DNA from: an uncultured Bacteroidales bacterium
GTDB taxonomy: Bacteria; Bacteroidota; Bacteroidia; Bacteroidales; CAIWKO01
Assembly: GCA_903913285.1 (NCBI GenBank)
Contig: CAIWKO010000066.1
Span: 1 to 64,000 of the forward strand
Reading direction: 5' to 3'
Length of the DNA stretch: 64,000 nt
The first letter of the stretch is position 1; every line of letters begins with the position of its first letter. Of this stretch, positions 1,972 through 56,623 are shown piece after piece. A model generated the notes under the pieces. It had not been told where the DNA came from. It saw only the letters and a list, made by a program, of their open reading frames with translations, and made no database searches. Both the position numbers and the translations under genes were made by a program.

Positions 1972-3078
1972 TTACTCCAAACGTATTTTAAATTTCCTTA
2001 CACTCATGGTGATAAAAAACACTATCATGCCGCATAGCACCAGGGTTTCTTTCCACACACCCATAAATCCCAATCCTTTTAACATAATATTTTTGATGAT
2101 GATGATGAAATAGGTGGAAGGATTTACGTGGCACAACCATTGCAACACCAGCGGCATATTTTCGACAGGATAAATAAAGCCCGAAAGGATGATGGTGGGC
2201 AGCATCAGGCCCATCATCGACATAAGCATGGCCGTTTGCTGACTGCTGGTGGAGGTTGAAATAAATATCCCCACCGACAGCGAAAGCAAGATGAACAACA
2301 TACTTTCCAATAGCAACAGCACTATGCTTCCTTGTATGGGTAAGCCGAACACGAAATTGCTCAGCAGCAGTATGGTGATAACATTCACGAACGACAACAC
2401 CGCGTAAGGCATCACCTTGCCGATGATGATCTGCAGCGGCCTCAGGGGCGACGCGAGCAGTATTTCCATGGTGCCCAGTTCTTTTTCGCGCACAATACTC
2501 ACCGAAGTGAGCAGGGCACAGATAAGCACCAGTATCAGTGTCATGGTTCCCGGCACGAACATGTAAACACCTTTCAGTTCTTCGTTGTAGAGCATACGCG
2601 ATTCAATACCGATCTGCATCGGAATAGCAGCCTGAGCGTTTTCTTTTTGCACATAATCGTTGATGATGGCCGAGGTGTAGCTCACGATAAGATTAGCCGA
2701 GTTGGCATCCGAAGCGTCGGCTATCAGATGCACTGCAGCTTTGTTGTCGCGTTGAAGTTTCACCGCAAAATCGGGTTCGAACACCACCACTTCTTTCACC
2801 GATGCGTTGCGGAAGCATGCCCCTATCTGGTCTTCGCTGGTGAGCACTTTGGTGACGACAAAATATCCCGAAGAAACCAGCTTGTCGGTAATTTTTTTGG
2901 TAACCACATCCTGCGAATGATCGAGTATGCCTATTTTGGCATCCTTGATCTCGTTGGTTACCACGTAGCCGAACAACAACATCTGAACCACCGGCATGAT
3001 GAACAAAATAGCCAACGTACGCTTGTCGCGGAAAATATGATAGAACTCTTTAATTACAAAGCCGAGAAAGTGTTTCAT
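1972..3078 (-). CDS. ABC-2 type transporter permease (first permease of efflux operon)
   Basis: ABC-2 membrane subunit of 368 aa, paralogous to the downstream permease at 727-1851. It has an N-terminal helix, a large extracytoplasmic domain, then a conserved cytoplasmic segment (SIVREKELGTMEILLASPL) and about five C-terminal helices. The arrangement of two ABC-2 permeases with paired ATPases, an HlyD adaptor and a TetR regulator resembles E. coli YbhGFSR/CecR, so export of a small toxic compound is likely. The substrate is inference only. Confidence 0.9.
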   Translation of the reverse strand: MKHFLGFVIKEFYHIFRDKRTLAILFIMPVVQMLLFGYVVTNEIKDAKIGILDHSQDVVTKKITDKLVSSGYFVVTKVLTSEDQIGACFRNASVKEVVVFEPDFAVKLQRDNKAAVHLIADASDANSANLIVSYTSAIINDYVQKENAQAAIPMQIGIESRMLYNEELKGVYMFVPGTMTLILVLICALLTSVSIVREKELGTMEILLASPLRPLQIIIGKVMPYAVLSFVNVITILLLSNFVFGLPIQGSIVLLLLESMLFILLSLSVGIFISTSTSSQQTAMLMSMMGLMLPTIILSGFIYPVENMPLVLQWLCHVNPSTYFIIIIKNIMLKGLGFMGVWKETLVLCGMIVFFITMSVRKFKIRLE

Positions 3079-3087
3079 TTTATGAGG

Positions 3088-3147
3088 GTATATGGTCTAT
3101 GGTAGCTGGTAGTTGGTACATGGTAGTTGGTATTTGGAATATGGTAG
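3088..3147. repeat. degenerate 7-nt tandem repeat (GGTAnnT), inner left arm
   Basis: Eight or nine heptamers beginning GGTA or similar (GGTATAT, GGTCTAT, GGTAGCT, GGTAGTT and so on) separate the permease start from the end of the four-helix-bundle gene. The array is complementary in type to the ACCATAT/ACCTGTT array at 3565-3634 on the far side of that gene. Confidence 0.85.
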
Positions 3148-3151
3148 CATA

Positions 3152-3511
3152 TTATTTTCTGAGATTATTTGATTTTCGCAATGCGTAAAGCATTTTTTGT
3201 ATGGAATGAATGCTTTGCATTATAGTTGTCGTTTTTTCTTCTTTTATGTATTTGATTCTTTGTGCAGCAATTAAAAGGGTTTCCAATTCGAAACTTGAAC
3301 CCAGAGAAATATCCAAAAAGTGATTGAAATCATTAACCGTGCTTCTTCCGCATCCTTCTGCAATATTTGCCGAAATGGATACTGCACACCTGTTTATCTG
3401 TGAAGTTAAACCAAATTGTTCCTTCGCCGGAAAAGTATTTGTAACGTCATAAATATTTACAATTAAATCCATCGATATTTTCCAAACTTCCAAATCTTTA
3501 AAAAAATGCAT
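3152..3511 (-). CDS. four-helix-bundle protein (S23/IVS-like, TIGR02436 type)
   Basis: A 119-aa protein of the small four-helix-bundle family first known from intervening sequences in 23S rRNA genes. Recognisable family features are the N-terminal FKDLEVWKISMDLIVNIY stretch, the FGLTSQI(N)R segment and SISANIAEGCGR. The fold is all-helical and the function of the family is not established. The gene breaks an otherwise continuous efflux operon between the ATPase and permease genes and is flanked on both sides by inverted arrays of 7-nt repeats. This suggests insertion as a unit rather than a role in efflux. Confidence 0.85.
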   Translation of the reverse strand: MHFFKDLEVWKISMDLIVNIYDVTNTFPAKEQFGLTSQINRCAVSISANIAEGCGRSTVNDFNHFLDISLGSSFELETLLIAAQRIKYIKEEKTTTIMQSIHSIQKMLYALRKSNNLRK

Positions 3512-3564: not shown

Positions 3565-3634
3565 TACCATATACCTGTTACCATATACCTGTTACCTGTT
3601 ACCATATACCTGTTACCTATTACCTATTACTTAT
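3565..3634. repeat. degenerate 7-nt tandem repeat (ACCATAT/ACCTGTT), inner right arm
   Basis: About ten heptamers of the types ACCATAT, ACCTGTT and ACCTATT lie upstream of the four-helix-bundle gene start. Read as reverse complement they are the same GGTATAT-like family as 3088-3147, so the two arrays form an inverted pair around the gene. Confidence 0.85.
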
Positions 3635-4367
3635 TATCTCCTCTTGCCAACTTAATAAACACATCGTTCATCGAATCTGCCCCGAAGGTTTCTTTCAGTT
3701 TCTGGGGAGTATCCAGTGCGGCGATGCGCCCGTCGACCATGATGGAAACGCGGTCGCAATATTCGGCTTCGTCCATATAGTGCGTGGTCACGAACACGGT
3801 GACGCCCTCGCTGGCCGCTTCGTATATTTGGTTCCAAAATTGTCTGCGGGTGATGGGGTCAACCCCGCCCGTGGGTTCATCCAAAAAAACGATCTTCGGG
3901 TCATGCACTATGGCGATCGAAAACGCCAGCTTTTGTCGCCAGCCCAATGGCAAGTCTTTAATCAGCTTTTTAGCCGAATCCTGCAGGCCAAGTTTATCGA
4001 GCAGCAGTTGAGTTTTGATTTTAATATCTTTGCGTGTCATACCGTAGATGCCGCCAAAAAAACGGATGTTTTCCGCAACGGTCAGGTCTTCATAGAGCGA
4101 AAACTTCTGACTCATATATCCTATGCTGTTTTTGATGGCTTCGGTTTGCGTATACACATCGAACCCGGCTATGGTTGCTTTGCCCGAAGTGGGTTTCGAA
4201 AGGCCGCACAATATCTTGATAGCAGTTGTCTTACCGGCACCGTTGGCTCCCAAAAAACCGAAGATCTCTCCTTTATAAACATCAAAGGTCAGGTCGTCGT
4301 TGGCTGTAAAACTCCCGAACTTTTTATAGAGATTGCTTACGGTAATTATTTTTTCGCGTGTACTCAT
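3627..4367 (-). CDS. ABC transporter ATP-binding protein (efflux)
   Basis: Cytoplasmic ATPase of 246 aa. Walker A is GANGAGKT (residues 40-47), Walker B is KIVFLDEP, and the H-loop is in FVTTHYMDEAEYC. The signature motif is degenerate (LPLGWRQK instead of LSGGQ), as in the C-terminal ATPase half of YbhF. I chose the ATG at 4367 because it overlaps the TGA of the upstream ATPase by 4 bp (ATGA), a typical coupled junction; the frame is open 10 codons further up. It probably works as a heterodimer with the 4364-5278 product. Confidence 0.93.
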   Translation of the reverse strand: MSTREKIITVSNLYKKFGSFTANDDLTFDVYKGEIFGFLGANGAGKTTAIKILCGLSKPTSGKATIAGFDVYTQTEAIKNSIGYMSQKFSLYEDLTVAENIRFFGGIYGMTRKDIKIKTQLLLDKLGLQDSAKKLIKDLPLGWRQKLAFSIAIVHDPKIVFLDEPTGGVDPITRRQFWNQIYEAASEGVTVFVTTHYMDEAEYCDRVSIMVDGRIAALDTPQKLKETFGADSMNDVFIKLARGDNK

Positions 4368-5278
4368 GATGCCTCGTTCATTAATGACATAAAACAATCT
4401 TCAATATTGGGTTCTATAGGGTTTATTTCCAGTTGCTGATGGCCGAGAGCGGTCAGGTACTTTTCAAGTTCTTCCTTCGAGATACGGTTTTCTTTTGCAG
4501 TATAGTGAACATATTGTCCGAACGGGAACACACTATCGCAAGCGGGATAATTGCTCAGATCGTTCAGCAATTTGTGGATGTTTGACGAACGGATGGCCAG
4601 AATGTTTTTACCGAAACTTGATGTGATGAGGTCAGGTTTATCGATCTTAAGTATGCTGCCGTTCTGTATCAGGGCCACTCGGTCGCAGAGCGAAGCTTCG
4701 TCCATATAGGGTGTTGAAACCACGATGGTGATACCCGCGTTGCGTAGCGACTTCAGCATTTCCCAAAATTCCTTGCGCGAAACGGCGTCGACGCCCGTGG
4801 TGGGTTCGTCCAAAAAAAGCACTTCGGGTTTGTGGATCAGGGCACACGATAAGGCAAGCTTTTGTTTCATCCCTCCCGACAAAGCTCCTGCACGGCGGTC
4901 CTTAAAAGGTTCGATCTGGCTGTAAATGTCCTTTATCAGATGATAGTTTTCCTGAATGGTGGTGCTGAAGATGGTGGCAAAAAATGTCAGGTTCTCTTCA
5001 ACGGTCAAATCCTGATAAAGCGAAAATCTTCCCGGCATATAGCCAACCATTTTGCGTATCTTTTTGTAGTCTTTCACCACATCCAAACCCATCACTGTGG
5101 CTTTTCCCGAATCAGGCAGCAACAAGGTCACCAAAATACGAAACAAGCTGGTTTTCCCTGCCCCGTCGGGACCTATAAATCCGAATATCTCGCCTTTATC
5201 GACACTAAATGTGATGTCTTCGAGCGCTACGATCTTTTTATAGCTTTTATGGATATTTTCAACGATTACCGTGTTCAT
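4364..5278 (-). CDS. ABC transporter ATP-binding protein (efflux)
   Basis: ATPase of 304 aa with Walker A GPDGAGKT, a canonical signature LSGGMKQK, Walker B LFLDEPTTG and an extra C-terminal domain of about 70 residues. It corresponds to the N-terminal ATPase half of YbhF-type transporters, the downstream gene being the other half, so this operon has the two halves as separate genes with a 4-bp overlap. The ATG at 5278 is preferred over an upstream in-frame GTG at 5284. Confidence 0.93.
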   Translation of the reverse strand: MNTVIVENIHKSYKKIVALEDITFSVDKGEIFGFIGPDGAGKTSLFRILVTLLLPDSGKATVMGLDVVKDYKKIRKMVGYMPGRFSLYQDLTVEENLTFFATIFSTTIQENYHLIKDIYSQIEPFKDRRAGALSGGMKQKLALSCALIHKPEVLFLDEPTTGVDAVSRKEFWEMLKSLRNAGITIVVSTPYMDEASLCDRVALIQNGSILKIDKPDLITSSFGKNILAIRSSNIHKLLNDLSNYPACDSVFPFGQYVHYTAKENRISKEELEKYLTALGHQQLEINPIEPNIEDCFMSLMNEAS

Positions 5279-5311
5279 TATCACGTTTATTAAATTATTT
5301 TAAATCCTGCC

Positions 5312-5346
5312 TGATACCAGATACTAGATACCATAGACCTGATACC
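5312..5346. repeat. degenerate 7-nt tandem repeat, outer right arm
   Basis: Heptamer array between the ATPase and HlyD genes. Its reverse complement matches 1859-1893 at 32 of 35 positions. Both copies fall in spacers between operon genes, not in coding sequence. Confidence 0.85.
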
Positions 5347-15042: not shown

Positions 15043-15691
15043 ACTATTTTGTCTGTGATGTTGAGAAAAACTACCATTACCGGAACAAAATTCAGTATCC
15101 GATGCACAAATTTAATCAATCTTATTACATTATTTTTGGTTTTCGTTACTTTTTTTTCGGTCACGATCACTATTTTATAATTCGTTTTTAGTATCCGATG
15201 GATCATTGTTCATTCCCGATGAGTCATTATTCATTCCCGAATGTCCATTGTTAAAATCCGTACGTCCATTATCAATTCCCGGGCATCCATTGTCATAATC
15301 CGTGCATCCATTATTAATATCCGACCATCCATTAACGTTACCCGATGAATCATTATTCATTTCCGACCATCCATTGTTGATACCCGAGCGATCATTGTTG
15401 AAATCCGAACCATCACAGTTCCTAATTTAGGCGGAAGTGTTCTAAATTTTACCTGAAGTGTTCTGAAAATGATCTTCAGTGTCATTATTTTCGATAACAC
15501 CGCAAGCAAAAGTATCGGGAGCGGCATTAATAGTTGCTTCAGGAAGGATATTTGAGGGGTGATTGAAACAAAATTAATGGTGAGTGGCATAATCATATCA
15601 GTTATTGCACCAAATTTTAAATTTAGATGATCTTTTTGCAATTACTTGATAATAATTACTAATTTTATTCTCAGTTACCAATCCCAAAACA
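15043..15691. other. intergenic region dominated by 21-nt periodic repeats
   Basis: No recognisable gene. It contains the ten-unit 21-nt tandem repeat (15200-15409) and, just after it (about 15430-15495), three further degenerate 21-nt units of a different sequence built on GAAGTGTTCT. Short open frames on the minus strand (15175-15360 and 15357-15641) exist because 21 is a multiple of three; they translate as low-complexity 7-residue repeats and are probably not genes. Confidence 0.55.
15200..15409. repeat. 21-nt degenerate tandem repeat, ten units
   Basis: Ten contiguous units of exactly 21 nt share the core TCATT or CCATT near the start and a CCG two or three bases from the end; intervening bases vary. 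There are no unique spacers, so it is not a CRISPR. On the minus strand it reads as a heptapeptide repeat such as GCTDYDN and GRTDFNN. A partial eleventh unit precedes it at 15181-15199. Confidence 0.85.
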
Positions 15692-16717: not shown

Positions 16718-16729
16718 TAGTGTGAAGTT

Positions 16730-16799
16730 GGAAGACGGAAGACCGAAGACGGAAGACGGAAGACGGAAGACCGAAGACGGAAGACGGAAGACGGAAGTA
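16730..16799. repeat. perfect-period 7-nt tandem array (GGAAGAC)
   Basis: Ten tandem heptamers, seven of them exactly GGAAGAC, two CGAAGAC and a final GGAAGTA. The array fills the gap between the convergent T9SS protein and yicC genes. It is the least diverged of the 7-nt arrays in the window, so it may be the youngest. Confidence 0.95.
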
Positions 16800-46146: not shown

Positions 46147-48135
46147 ATGATCCGCAAAGAAACCATACAGAACATAATCGACGCCACGCGTATTGAAGAA
46201 GTGGTAGGCGATTTTGTTTCCTTGAAAAAGCGGGGAGTGAATTACATTGGCCTGTGCCCGTTCCACAACGAAAAAACACCTTCCTTCACAGTTTCGCCTG
46301 CCAAAGGGTTCTATCATTGTTTCGGATGCGGCAAGGGCGGAGGCTCGGTCGATTTCGTGATGGAACACGAACACGTCACCTATCCCGATGCTTTGCGCTA
46401 TCTGGCCGAAAAATATCATATCGAGATCGTCGACGAGATACAAACTGCCGAAGAAAAGCTGATGCAGTCCGAGTTGGAAACGCTTTACAGTGTTGTGTCG
46501 TACGCACAAAAACATTTTACCGAAAACCTGTTCAATACCGAGGCGGGCATTGCAATCGGCATGACCTATTTCACCGAACGCGGCTTCAACAAAGAGATCA
46601 TCCGCAAATTTCAGCTGGGCTTTTCGCCCGAAAAATGGGACGACCTGTCGAAAAACGCCACCGAGAACGGCTACAGCATCGAATATTTATATAAGACCGG
46701 CCTGGCCATAAAAAAGGACGACGGCGGATTCTACGACCGTTTCCGCGACCGTGTCATCTTCCCCATCCACAACCTGAGCGGACGCATCGTAGGTTTCACG
46801 GGCAGGATACTCTCGTCCGACAAAAATAAACCCAAGTACGTCAACTCGCCCGAATCGGATATCTACAGCAAAGGGAAAACCCTTTACGGGATATTTTTCG
46901 CCAAATCGGCCATCGTGGCCAACAATAACTGTTATTTGGTTGAAGGCAACACCGATGTCATTTCCCTCTACCAATCGGGCATCGAAAACGTGGTCGCTTC
47001 GTCGGGCACGGCCCTCACCACCGACCAGATAAAGCTCATCAAGAAATTCACGCAAAACATCACCATACTATACGACGGCGACGAAGCAGGCATCAAAGCT
47101 TCGCTGCGCGGCATCGACATGGTGCTCGAAGAAGGTCTGAACGTGAAGATAGTGTTGTTTCCCGAAGGTGAAGACCCCGATTCCTATGCCCGCAAACACG
47201 ATGCCCTTCAGATAAAGAAATTCGTTACCGACAACGCGGTAAACTTCATACTATTCAAAACAAAACTTTTGCTCGACGAAGTTCAGCACGATCCCATCAA
47301 AAAAGCCGAACTCATCAAAGAGATCGTCCGTACCATTTCGCTCATTCCCGAACCCATCCACCGCAGCCTCTACATAAAAGAATGCGGCGAACTGATGCAG
47401 ATTCCCGAGCAGTCGCTGTTGAACGAACTGAACAAACTCATCCGCAAAAAGTTCAAAAAAGATGTCTCTGAATCCTCCGATCAGGAAACGTTTGTGCTTC
47501 CCGATTTTCAGGAAACAGCCGCTGAACAGCAATTCATACAGAAACGCTACGACAGCCTTCCCCTCGAACAGCATTTGCTGTGGCTGATATTGATCTACGG
47601 CGAAAACGAACTCACTCTTGAGCGCCCGGTGGATGAAGACCAAAAACATACCGAAACCTTCGCCATTAAAGTGTCCGACTATATTCTGAAGATACTTCAG
47701 GACGAAGATTTCACCTTCAGCGATGCCAAACTGCAGCAGATCTTCGACGAATATCTGGTTCAGATGCAGCATACCGAAACCGACGAAAGCCAGTATTTTA
47801 TCAATCATCCCGACAAAGAAATTGCAAAACTCTATCGCGAGATTATCAATCAGATCTATTACCTGTCAAAGAACTGGCAGGATAAATATAAGATCACCAC
47901 ACCCGTTCACGAAGACAACGATCGTGAGATCCTTGTGAAAGATATTTTAAGCACCATAAATGCCATTCAACTCAACCGGGTTTCGAAAGAACTGAGCGAA
48001 ATAGAAGACCAGATCAAGGCCATGCAAAAAGAAAATGCCGAAGATCCCGAACTGATGATATTGATGGATACGTTCCTGAAAAAAAATACGCTGAAGATAA
48101 AGATCAGCGCCATGCTGGGAAGAGTGATCAATTAA
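46147..48135 (+). CDS. dnaG: DNA primase
   Basis: Replicative primase of 662 aa. It has an N-terminal CHC2 zinc finger with Cys37, His40, Cys58 and Cys61 (CPFH and CFGC), a catalytic core with a Toprim fold (VEGNTDVISLY, then ILYDGDEAG), and a C-terminal helicase-binding region of low conservation. It synthesises RNA primers at the fork. An 8-nt-period repeat of TTAACCAC/TTAACT fills the gap at 46110-46140 before the start. Confidence 0.97.
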   Translation: MIRKETIQNIIDATRIEEVVGDFVSLKKRGVNYIGLCPFHNEKTPSFTVSPAKGFYHCFGCGKGGGSVDFVMEHEHVTYPDALRYLAEKYHIEIVDEIQTAEEKLMQSELETLYSVVSYAQKHFTENLFNTEAGIAIGMTYFTERGFNKEIIRKFQLGFSPEKWDDLSKNATENGYSIEYLYKTGLAIKKDDGGFYDRFRDRVIFPIHNLSGRIVGFTGRILSSDKNKPKYVNSPESDIYSKGKTLYGIFFAKSAIVANNNCYLVEGNTDVISLYQSGIENVVASSGTALTTDQIKLIKKFTQNITILYDGDEAGIKASLRGIDMVLEEGLNVKIVLFPEGEDPDSYARKHDALQIKKFVTDNAVNFILFKTKLLLDEVQHDPIKKAELIKEIVRTISLIPEPIHRSLYIKECGELMQIPEQSLLNELNKLIRKKFKKDVSESSDQETFVLPDFQETAAEQQFIQKRYDSLPLEQHLLWLILIYGENELTLERPVDEDQKHTETFAIKVSDYILKILQDEDFTFSDAKLQQIFDEYLVQMQHTETDESQYFINHPDKEIAKLYREIINQIYYLSKNWQDKYKITTPVHEDNDREILVKDILSTINAIQLNRVSKELSEIEDQIKAMQKENAEDPELMILMDTFLKKNTLKIKISAMLGRVIN

Positions 48136-48156
48136 AATAATGATAATAAAATCAGA

Positions 48157-48777
48157 ATGAGCAATAATATAGTGATCGTCGATTATGGAATGGGCAACCT
48201 CAATTCGGTGAAACGGAAACTCAGCCGGCTGAAGCTGAATGCCGTCATTTCTTCCGATCCTGCTGAAATTTCCTCGGCCGACAAACTCATACTTCCGGGC
48301 GTAGGTCATTTCCAGAAAGCCATGGAAAACATAAGGAAATTATTGCTTTTAGAAACGTTAAATGAGGCTGTTATCGTAAAAAAGAAACCCATACTCGGGA
48401 TATGTCTCGGCATGCAGCTGATGGCAAAACACAGCGAAGAAGGAAATGTCGAAGGACTGGGCTGGTTCGATGCCGATGTAGTACGGTTTCAGGTTCAAAA
48501 TACTTTGAAATTCAAGGTGCCACATACGGGCTGGAACCAGATCATCCGCACAAAAGATAGCATGCTGATGAAAGATGTGCCTGATCTGGCCGAGTTCTAT
48601 TTTGTGCATTCATTTCACTATAAGGCAAACGATATCAACGATATTCTGAATGAAACCGATTACGAATATCGTTTCACGTCTGCTGTCGAAAAAAATAATA
48701 TCTTCGGGGTGCAGTATCATCCCGAAAAAAGCCACGATGTTGGCGAACAATTGCTGAAAAACTTCATTGAGATCTAA
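48157..48777 (+). CDS. HisH-like glutamine amidotransferase (HisH2/WbuY type)
   Basis: Class I glutaminase of 206 aa with an intact catalytic triad, Cys83 in GICLGMQ and His188/Glu190 in QYHPE. It releases ammonia for a HisF-like partner. The partner gene after it belongs to the acetamidino-modification HisF2/WbuZ group rather than to histidine synthesis, and no his genes are nearby, so this is probably the HisH2 of that module. The intervening four-helix-bundle gene separates the pair. Confidence 0.88.
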   Translation: MSNNIVIVDYGMGNLNSVKRKLSRLKLNAVISSDPAEISSADKLILPGVGHFQKAMENIRKLLLLETLNEAVIVKKKPILGICLGMQLMAKHSEEGNVEGLGWFDADVVRFQVQNTLKFKVPHTGWNQIIRTKDSMLMKDVPDLAEFYFVHSFHYKANDINDILNETDYEYRFTSAVEKNNIFGVQYHPEKSHDVGEQLLKNFIEI

Positions 48778-48814
48778 TTACTAATTACAAGTTATGAGTT
48801 ACTAGTTATTTATT
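48776..48814. repeat. degenerate 7-nt repeat array, left of four-helix-bundle gene
   Basis: About five heptamers of the TTACTAA/TTACAAG/TTATGAG type follow the hisH2 stop. The reverse complement aligns with the array at 49190-49227 over about 32 bases with roughly 80 percent identity by eye. Confidence 0.75.
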
Positions 48815-49177
48815 ATGAAAGGAAACAGCATTATAAAGGATAAGAGTTTTTTGTTTGCGATCAGCATTGTGAATATATATAAGCGACTGGTGTCAGAAAA
48901 AAAGGAATTTGTATTATCAAAACAATTAGTAAGAAGTGGAACATCGATCGGTGCAAATGTTTCTGAAGCTGTAAACGGTCAATCCGATAAAGATTTTATT
49001 GCAAAATTATGCATTGCACGGAAAGAAGCACAAGAAACGCTGTATTGGTTAAATTTGTTAGAAGCAACATTATATTTGACCAAAATAGAAGCAGAACAAT
49101 TAAAATTGGATTGCGAAGAATTATTAAAAATATTAACGGCGATAATAAAAACAGTGCAAAATAAAATTAGCAACTAA
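48815..49177 (+). CDS. four-helix-bundle protein (S23/IVS-like)
   Basis: Protein of 120 aa, second member of the small four-helix-bundle family in the window and of a different subgroup from 3152-3511. Family markers are the LVRSGTSIGANVSEAVN segment and DFIAKLCIARKEAQETLYWL. It splits the hisH2-hisF2 pair, which are contiguous in other genomes, and is flanked by inverted 7-nt repeat arrays. Its AT-richness contrasts with hisH2 and hisF2. Confidence 0.88.
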   Translation: MKGNSIIKDKSFLFAISIVNIYKRLVSEKKEFVLSKQLVRSGTSIGANVSEAVNGQSDKDFIAKLCIARKEAQETLYWLNLLEATLYLTKIEAEQLKLDCEELLKILTAIIKTVQNKISN

Positions 49178-49189
49178 TTACACCTAGCT

Positions 49190-49227
49190 GACGAGTAACT
49201 AGTAATTCGTAACTAATAACTAATAAT
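49190..49227. repeat. degenerate 7-nt repeat array, right of four-helix-bundle gene
   Basis: Heptamers GAGTAAC, TAGTAAT, TCGTAAC, TAATAAC and TAATAAT fill the gap up to the hisF2 start. They are inverted relative to 48776-48814. Confidence 0.75.
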
Positions 49228-49980
49228 ATGTTTAGACCCAGGGTTATTCCGGTTTTACTGTTAAAGAATCTTGCCTTAGTAAAATCTAAAGGCTTCAAAG
49301 ATTACAATTATATCGGCGACCCCATAAATGCCGTTCGCATCTTCAACGACCTCAAAGCCGATGAATTGGTCTTCCTCGATATCATGGCAACAAAAGAAAA
49401 ACGACTGGTATCTCTTGATTTTGTGAAAGATGTAGGCGAAGAGGCCAACATGCCCTTTGCAGTGGGTGGCGGCATCACCACCATCGAAAACATACGCAAC
49501 ATCATCAATGCCGGGGCCGAAAAAGTGATCATTAACACTCATGCTGCCGAAAACCCCGATTTCATTCTCGAGGCTTCCGAAACTTTCGGTTCTTCCACCA
49601 TCGTGGTGTGTATCGATGTTAAAAAGAAACTCTTCGGCGGACAGCAGACCTGGGTGGCTGGTGGAAGCAAGTCAACGGGCTATTCCCCGGTCGATTTTGC
49701 AAAGCTGATGCAGGAAAAAGGGGCGGGGGAGATCATCATTCAATCTATTGAACAGGACGGAATGATGAAAGGTTATGATATCGATCTGATAAAAAGCATT
49801 TCCGAAGCGGTCACCATTCCGGTAATTGCTTTGGGCGGAGCAGGGACTTTAGACCACATGAAACAGGCCTATAACGAAGCCTATGCCAACGGCATGGCCG
49901 CCGGAAGCATGTTTGTGTATATTGGCCCGCATCACGGAGTTTTAATCAATTACCCTCAAAGATCGGAATTGGTTTTCTGA
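49228..49980 (+). CDS. AglZ/HisF2-family acetamidino modification protein (WbuZ-like)
   Basis: TIM-barrel HisF homologue of 250 aa. It starts with RVIPVLLLKN and has GDPINAVRIFNDLKADELV, the form typical of HisF2/WbuZ proteins instead of the CLDVKDGRVVKG start of true HisF. With HisH2 it channels ammonia for amidination of a nucleotide-linked N-acetyl sugar in surface glycans (known for WbpG-HisH2-HisF2). The usual PseA/WbpG amidotransferase is not adjacent; an AsnB-type protein follows instead. Confidence 0.88.
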   Translation: MFRPRVIPVLLLKNLALVKSKGFKDYNYIGDPINAVRIFNDLKADELVFLDIMATKEKRLVSLDFVKDVGEEANMPFAVGGGITTIENIRNIINAGAEKVIINTHAAENPDFILEASETFGSSTIVVCIDVKKKLFGGQQTWVAGGSKSTGYSPVDFAKLMQEKGAGEIIIQSIEQDGMMKGYDIDLIKSISEAVTIPVIALGGAGTLDHMKQAYNEAYANGMAAGSMFVYIGPHHGVLINYPQRSELVF

Positions 49981-50002
49981 TAATTAACTTATTGAACAGC
50001 CT

Positions 50003-56176: not shown

Positions 56177-56623
56177 ATAGGGTTTTGATTGGTTGAAGGT
56201 TATGCCCCTGTTCAACACAGGGCTTAATAGCCTCAACATAAGTATACAAAATTAGGTAAAAAAGCAAAGCAATAAAAAATAATTCTTGACGAATTCAGAC
56301 AGGTATATATGCTTTTTCGAGCGAAGTCGAGAATTGTCCTTTCGAGCGGAGTCGAGAAACATCTTCGAACGTAGTCAGGACAGTTTTTCGAGCGGAGTCG
56401 AGAAACATTTCAAGCGGAGTCGGAATTGTCCTTTCAAGCGGAGTCGAGAAACATTTCGAGCGAAGCCGATTGAAAGAATTATATTTCGAAGTGCGACACA
56501 TCGATGATTCTTTCTCTTTTTTGGGCGCCTCCGCCCACCGGCGGATCGGGCTGTCCGCTCATAGTCCTCGCTACGCTGCGGGTTTTCCACTTCTGTCCCT
56601 CACGCGGAGGCAAACAGCCGTCC
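56177..56623. other. gene-free stretch with dispersed repeats at the edge of the defence island
   Basis: No credible gene. It holds the seven-copy repeat at 56314-56474 and then a GC-rich segment (56520-56620) with a short inverted repeat around CGCCCACCGGCGG. This composition differs sharply from both flanking genes and marks the boundary between housekeeping genes and the defence genes. Confidence 0.6.
56314..56474. repeat. seven degenerate copies of a TTTCGAGCGGAGTCGAGAA repeat
   Basis: Seven head-to-tail copies with period about 21-25 nt, variously TTCGAGCGGAGTCGAGAAAC, TTCAAGCGGAGTCG and TTCGAGCGAAGTCGAG. The unit is partly self-complementary (TTCGAGCG and TCGAGAA ends), so each copy can form a small hairpin. 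There are no unique spacers of CRISPR type. Confidence 0.85.

Follow-up and report, generated by a model that had tools for sequence, protein, structure and literature searches.

The S23 or intervening-sequence protein (IVP) has been a puzzle for decades, since it was mainly studied inside rRNA, where its gene often decays. Its fold family is homologous to that of Avd, the nucleic-acid-binding partner in diversity-generating retroelements. The intervening sequence (IVS) of the 23S rRNA of Coxiella burnetii encodes a protein of the PF05635 family and contains tandem GACAGAT heptamers directly before the start codon, whose number varies between strains, while the ends of the insertion form a 28-bp stem; in vitro, RNase III cuts where the first repeat begins (PMC4990558). 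Heptamers are also known from the TAACTGA or STRR repeats, which form short intergenic arrays in Cyanobacteria, Beggiatoaceae and some Bacteroidetes (PMC4679880). The open-access literature that we searched mentions the PF05635 protein only as the ORF of an rRNA IVS, as a relative of Avd or as an annotation, and it does not describe heptamer-armed copies in operons, which is weak evidence of absence.

Such an armed copy is contained in the window, the whole 64-kb stretch of DNA analysed here, where it resides between two intact host genes, hisH2 and hisF2, in a region that is preceded by a primase-like gene and followed by an asparagine-synthase-like gene (Table 1). The initial annotation had described this locus as the second four-helix-bundle gene of the window, which together with inverted 7-nt arrays would split hisH2 from hisF2 at 48776-49227. 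Profile searches and the in-register inverted arrays bear out this description, with the insertion spanning from about 48774 to 49227. The encoded protein covers the full domain of PF05635 (23S_rRNA_IVP) with 94.6 bits (cut-off 33.8), it matches the model of the four helix bundle protein TIGR02436 with 106.6 bits (cut-off 24) and it has a solved homologue in 2rld (E 3.4e-34). Its gene is the sole ORF inside the insertion. A scan of the region 48100-50000 against Rfam gave no match, and neither did defence-system models for the element nor Avd models for its protein.

Table 1. Positions of the two armed elements of the window and of the genes flanking the second.
Feature	Position	Strand	Evidence
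3' arm of first element, unit GGTANNN	3087..3146	-	period-7 scan
First four-helix-bundle gene of the window	3152..3511	-	profile match
5' arm of first element	3565..3639	-	period-7 scan
hisH2-like glutamine amidotransferase, upstream host gene, intact	48157..48777	+	profile match
Left arm, degenerate heptamer array	48774..48816	+	period-7 scan, motif matches
Four-helix-bundle / 23S rRNA intervening-sequence protein, 120 aa	48815..49177	+	PF05635, TIGR02436, 2rld
Right arm, inverted array of the left arm's heptamer family	49189..49228	-	inverted alignment, period-7 scan, motif matches
hisF2-like synthase subunit, downstream host gene, intact	49228..49980	+	profile match

The locus resembles the 23S rRNA IVSs of Coxiella and Leptospira in several respects. 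It is a unit of about 430 nt in which, as judged from the predicted fold and the motif matches, a PF05635 gene is placed in a loop closed by complementary ends that form a stem around the ORF, and it shares with the Coxiella IVS the tandem heptamers just before the start codon and with IVSs in general the presumed horizontal acquisition. It differs in its location, which is in an mRNA between protein-coding genes instead of an rRNA gene, in arms that consist of element-specific short tandem arrays, in the many copies per genome and in an ORF that is under strong purifying selection rather than decaying. The homologous fold of Avd is contrasted by the missing Avd match of the protein and by the fact that neither a reverse transcriptase nor template or variable repeats were noted at the locus; the protein of the first element of the window matches phrog_3206 (E 7e-8) and scores 24 bits with NF033474, below the cut-off of 80. 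Short intergenic arrays are also found in REP/BIME-type and STRR heptamer repeats, but the TAACTGA repeats are direct, contain one fixed heptamer and no gene, whereas here inverted, degenerate and element-specific arrays bracket a gene. Finally, MITEs and insertion sequences are likewise mobile units with terminal inverted repeats, from which the element is distinguished by the absence of an encoded transposase and of conserved sequence at its ends; a clear target-site duplication was not apparent by eye at the Flavobacterium site described below.

The left array starts at the hisH2 stop codon and reaches the start codon of the four-helix-bundle gene, and the right array stops at the start codon of hisF2. 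Both arms have the degenerate heptamer ARTTAYT as consensus unit, with four in-register units per side (left arm on the plus strand: AATTACT AATTACA AGTTATG AGTTACT AGTTATT; right arm on the minus strand: ATTATT AGTTATT AGTTACG AATTACT AGTTACT). A search with the motif ARTTAYTARTTAYTARTTA, which comprises 2.7 units, allowing up to three mismatches, located matches at 48776, 48783, 48790 and 48797 on the plus strand and, inverted, at 49189, 49196, 49203 and 49210 on the minus strand, in both cases in an exact 7-nt register. In total, the window contains 11 such matches compared to 0.70 expected and a maximum of 4 in 100 shuffles, and an inverted local alignment of both arms scores 40, compared to a maximum of 34 in 200 shuffles. 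The heptamers had initially been given as TTACTAA for this element and TAGTAAT for the first one. The units of the two elements do indeed differ, but both spellings need correction: TTACTAA represents just a single rotation and variant of the degenerate ARTTAYT unit, and the arms of the first element are of the GGTANNN type (GGTATAT, GGTAACA) and not TAGTAAT.

The spacing between hisH and hisF was compared in related genomes, as proposed. In the four pairs that were directly readable (L008, L010, L011 and L012, whose hisF are 46-62% identical), both genes abut or overlap without interruption by an array, which argues that the arm-gene-arm unit was inserted at the hisH2-hisF2 junction and that the array did not pre-exist but arrived with, or after, the gene. 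The absence of arrays from these gaps thus supports the assignment of the arms to the insertion, and no case was found where the gene is conserved at this place without repeats. The first element of the window is located between an ABC ATPase (3627-4397) and an ABC permease (1972-3078). Its protein can be aligned to that of the second element over 46 residues only, with 37% identity, consistent with their placement in different subgroups. Together with the differing arm units and an inverted layout that is common to the 135 loci described below, this supports the initial reading of the second element as having been inserted independently but with the same design. Two other gaps of the operon hosting the first element contain heptamer arrays (GGTATCT and its inverse at 5310-5346 and 1854-1893), which are mutually inverted and 3.4 kb apart, and which do not enclose any four-helix-bundle gene.

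The same architecture recurs widely. The source genome contains five PF05635 genes, four of which carry inverted arms, each with its own unit (weakly in L002). The fifth and longer gene (L005) has no arms and its orthologues occupy the same place in sister species (L041, L045, L047, likewise armless and at a fixed site), so that this clade is probably a resident host gene, a reading that we rejected for the armed subfamilies. Relatives were collected by a distant-homology scan with a single protein and contig samples, resulting in a set of 135 loci that is biased towards high-scoring family members. In this set, the left arm and the inverted right arm reach a median of 17.5 in their best ungapped match, compared to 8.5 for arms swapped between loci, and 109 of the 135 loci lie above the 95th percentile of swapped arms, though every element has its own unit, with a length of mostly 7 and then 8 nucleotides. 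Matched arms (score >12) were found for 11 of 13 PF05635 genes, but for only 4.5% of 202 control genes, which encode other proteins of 80-200 aa in these contigs. The loci belong to Bacteroidota and, as assigned by named records, to Cyanobacteriota (Euhalothece, Nostoc), Spirochaetota (Treponema) and Bacillota (Monoglobus). The protein of the hisH2-hisF2 element has its closest relatives mostly in Flavobacterium and its kin (50-65% identical), and the AATTATG/AGTTATG arms of these relatives resemble the unit found in the window. Other host sites include the cas2-cas1 pair on plasmids of Nostoc and Anabaena, which is split by genes in antisense direction to cas (L190, L191), and the hsdS-hsdR pair of Monoglobus (L193). 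The initial claim that two cases in the window argue against chance is corroborated by the motif count and by the arm-swap and other-gene controls. Although AT-rich arms pair readily, with swapped duplexes reaching a median of -29.9 kcal/mol, these 11 matches and both controls make a fortuitous occurrence of AT-rich intergenic repeats around a small gene exceedingly improbable.

The unit that moves consists of an arm, the gene and the inverted arm, and it lands between genes. Related units were detected at unrelated sites, both inside single genomes (L091/L093, L094/L098) and across genera (L043/L102), and in each case the homology stops at the arms. Among pairs at different sites, arm sequence is common to 42% of those with proteins that are at least 60% identical, but to 0-1% of those below 50%. 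Since near-identical recent paralogues with clean ends were not found in the genomes G055 or G072, where the best pairs with readable flanks are 77-85% identical, the boundaries were taken from three Flavobacterium loci (L169, L171, L174) at a site between an SDR and a SprT gene. In this trio, the unit is 97-99% identical compared to 82-87% in the flanking coding DNA, and the tract of high identity begins at the stop codon of the SDR gene and covers both arms, with both of its edges lying no more than about 15 nt from them, which is a recent horizontal movement with defined ends. The arm-to-arm tract and the non-homologous sites illustrate that, similar to insertion sequences, the element moves as a unit. 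At the same site, the unit is present in 18 of the 44 Flavobacterium genomes examined, while a nearly bare, array-free gap of 5-14 nt is found in L227, L229 and L228 and a piece of the right arm only in L209, L203, L207 and L215. On a weakly resolved tree of the flanking proteins, this distribution amounts to 12 parsimony changes on 44 tips. No target-site duplication was evident by eye at this site. The gap of L223 holds a short heptamer-like array, AACTTCTAACAAATAACATTT, between 13-14 bp direct repeats of the SprT start, AATTGAACGAAACT, which are possibly a target duplication.

Despite the repeated gain and loss per site, a median dN/dS of 0.076 across 134 pairs of four-helix-bundle genes shows that the protein is in use and under purifying selection. 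The same selection would be expected if this were an ordinary host gene for the regulation of adjacent genes, with the arms serving as terminator or translational control element, and the location is indeed kept in some operons across families (L054/L056/L073, L001/L036/L065). However, the neighbours are unrelated from site to site without any constant function and the gene is gained and lost in a patchy manner among close species and transferred horizontally with sharp edges, which renders such a regulatory role very unlikely. L054, L056 and L073 place the element in the same gene pair of different families, by eye the small and large subunit of methylmalonyl-CoA mutase, with three different but internally matched arm units. 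These orthologous units with wholly different, self-matched arms suggest that arms turn over as blocks.

Arrays also occur on their own. In 462 kb of the source genome, 26 of 28 period-7 arrays are intergenic, and periods of 5, 6 and 9-13 are almost absent. Arrays with period 7 or 8 that lack a four-helix-bundle gene are common in the genomes G000 and G106, and eight of nine elements have a solo array matching their arm in their own genome but not in the other (means 20.7 vs 9.5), which in case of the hisH2-hisF2 element is located at C36:227937-227968. Locus-specific inverted arms of longer units were also found at 14 of 24 loci (L270-L299) of GxxExxY genes (PF13366), an unrelated family (an example is found at G106 C47 128298-128676), and the SDR-SprT gap of L225 contains similar inverted heptamer arms around an unrelated ORF of 174 aa without Pfam match. 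The gene-free arrays and the other genes in matched arms imply that the link between protein and arms is not a strict one. The solo arrays may be leftovers of elements or related to them; alternatively, the arms may be a device of more general use. The same observations would be accounted for if the heptamer arrays were an independent, REP-like repeat system, with small genes captured between or inserted into existing arrays, and arms that match because each genome recycles few array families. We consider this unlikely, since the hisH-hisF sites of relatives and the SDR-SprT sites of L227, L228 and L229 are array-free, the tract transferred between three species takes in both arms and stops there, and insertion into a single array would leave direct rather than inverted flanks. 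Moreover, no arrays were detected in 220 kb of five genomes without the gene, compared to 68 in 1015 kb of carriers; this number is dominated by two genomes, and a correlation of the density of arrays with the copy number of the gene is no more than suggestive.

Several further repeats were observed. The window contains intergenic arrays of 21 bp at 15195-15464 (CATTATTCATTCCCGAACATC) and of 22-23 bp at 56315-56469 (TTTCGAGCGGAGTCGAGAA) and, at 16724-16797, a nearly perfect intergenic array of about 10 GGAAGAC heptamers, for which no partner array was found nearby. At 158-168 kb of contig C44 of G106 (L237:18276-20000 and L238:1-7990), a run of genes, by eye encoding toxin-antitoxin, nucleotidyltransferase/HEPN and GxxExxY proteins, is separated by repeated inverted AATTAGATTAATTCGAT elements and resembles an integron-like cassette array. 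Between inverted heptamer arrays at G000 C36 194231-194786 (L117), an ORF of tandem LRLRIICS-type repeats is probably a minisatellite and not a gene.

The orientation of the elements points towards a role of transcription. At 59 loci, crude ORF calls placed both neighbours in the direction of the gene in 46 cases, both against it in 4 and mixed in 9, and the 46:4 split has a binomial probability of about 4e-10 under the even split of a blind insertion, from which we infer that the armed unit depends on host transcription, either for its insertion or for its survival. As a fold prediction, the initially suggested pairing of the arms, by which the gene is looped out, is supported. For the hisH2-hisF2 element, the predicted mRNA fold contains a 22-bp helix between both arms (z = -2.83, with none of 100 shuffles being as stable), and pairing from arm to arm is predicted in 25 of 30 sampled elements, with a median z of -4.75 relative to simple 2-mer shuffles. 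Selection for this pairing in RNA was, in contrast, not supported by two tests. At one Flavobacterium site, base-by-base coevolution of arms gave no signal, as arms matched no better within than between species (p = 0.76 for identity and 0.21 for RNA duplex energy), and the excess of G-U mismatches expected of a sense RNA stem was replaced by the opposite bias (148 vs 222, p = 1.4e-4), so that processing at the RNA level is inferred by analogy.

Both failed tests suggest that the matching may instead be kept by DNA-level copying between arms. The same mobile element could thus rely on inverted arms that act and stay matched as DNA and not as RNA helix: movement would use a single-strand hairpin or a cruciform as its substrate, and the arms would be kept matched by template switching between them during replication. 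The lack of a compensatory signal in RNA terms, the mismatches, which are more compatible with wobble pairing in the template strand than in sense RNA, the slippage-type tandem periodicity and the turnover of arms as whole units rather than base by base all conform to this possibility, to which we give somewhat less than even prospects. It is opposed by the bias for a sense orientation in operons, which points to transcription, and by the processing of the rRNA relative as RNA, and the mismatch bias could equally reflect a skew in base composition.

Taken together, we favour, with moderate confidence, an interpretation of the hisH2-hisF2 unit as one copy of a minimal mobile element that has a single gene and resembles IVSs, but resides in mRNA operons instead of 23S rRNA. 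In the transcript, the arms are predicted to pair into a long helix, with the neighbouring cistrons ending and beginning at its base and the gene looped out. By analogy to Coxiella, with which it shares the protein family, the heptamers and the stem, the mRNA unit is probably also cut out by RNase III, which, as in Coxiella and Leptospira, would cleave the arm helix and thereby free the inserted message and separate the flanking cistrons, so that an insertion between cistrons would be nearly harmless. The four-helix-bundle protein, a relative of Avd, may serve the spread of its own element by recognising the arms. Since no cutting or copying enzyme is encoded, catalysis must come from elsewhere. 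The arms may stay matched despite their fast sequence change because repeats of 7-8 nt can re-pair in many registers after slippage.

More tentatively, and with a probability that we would place at about one in three, these loci could belong to a very widespread class of minimal mobile elements that has so far not been described and in which matched inverted short-period arrays, instead of conserved sequence, mark the ends. In such a class, the arrays would turn over in concert, the enclosed gene would be interchangeable, including the four-helix-bundle IVP, the nuclease-like GxxExxY protein and others, and the elements would have spread into operons of Bacteroidota as well as other phyla and would include the rRNA IVSs as a special case. 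Some of the heptamer arrays of bacterial genomes that have so far lacked an explanation could also be accounted for by the armed elements. The S23/IVP gene described here is intact and strongly constrained by purifying selection, and its mobility is demonstrated. It occurs in numerous Flavobacterium species, some of which are in culture, and one site is available in both filled and empty versions. These properties make three old questions concerning IVSs testable, namely how they move, which role the four-helix-bundle protein plays and whether excision from mRNA by RNase III makes operons safe harbours for such insertions.
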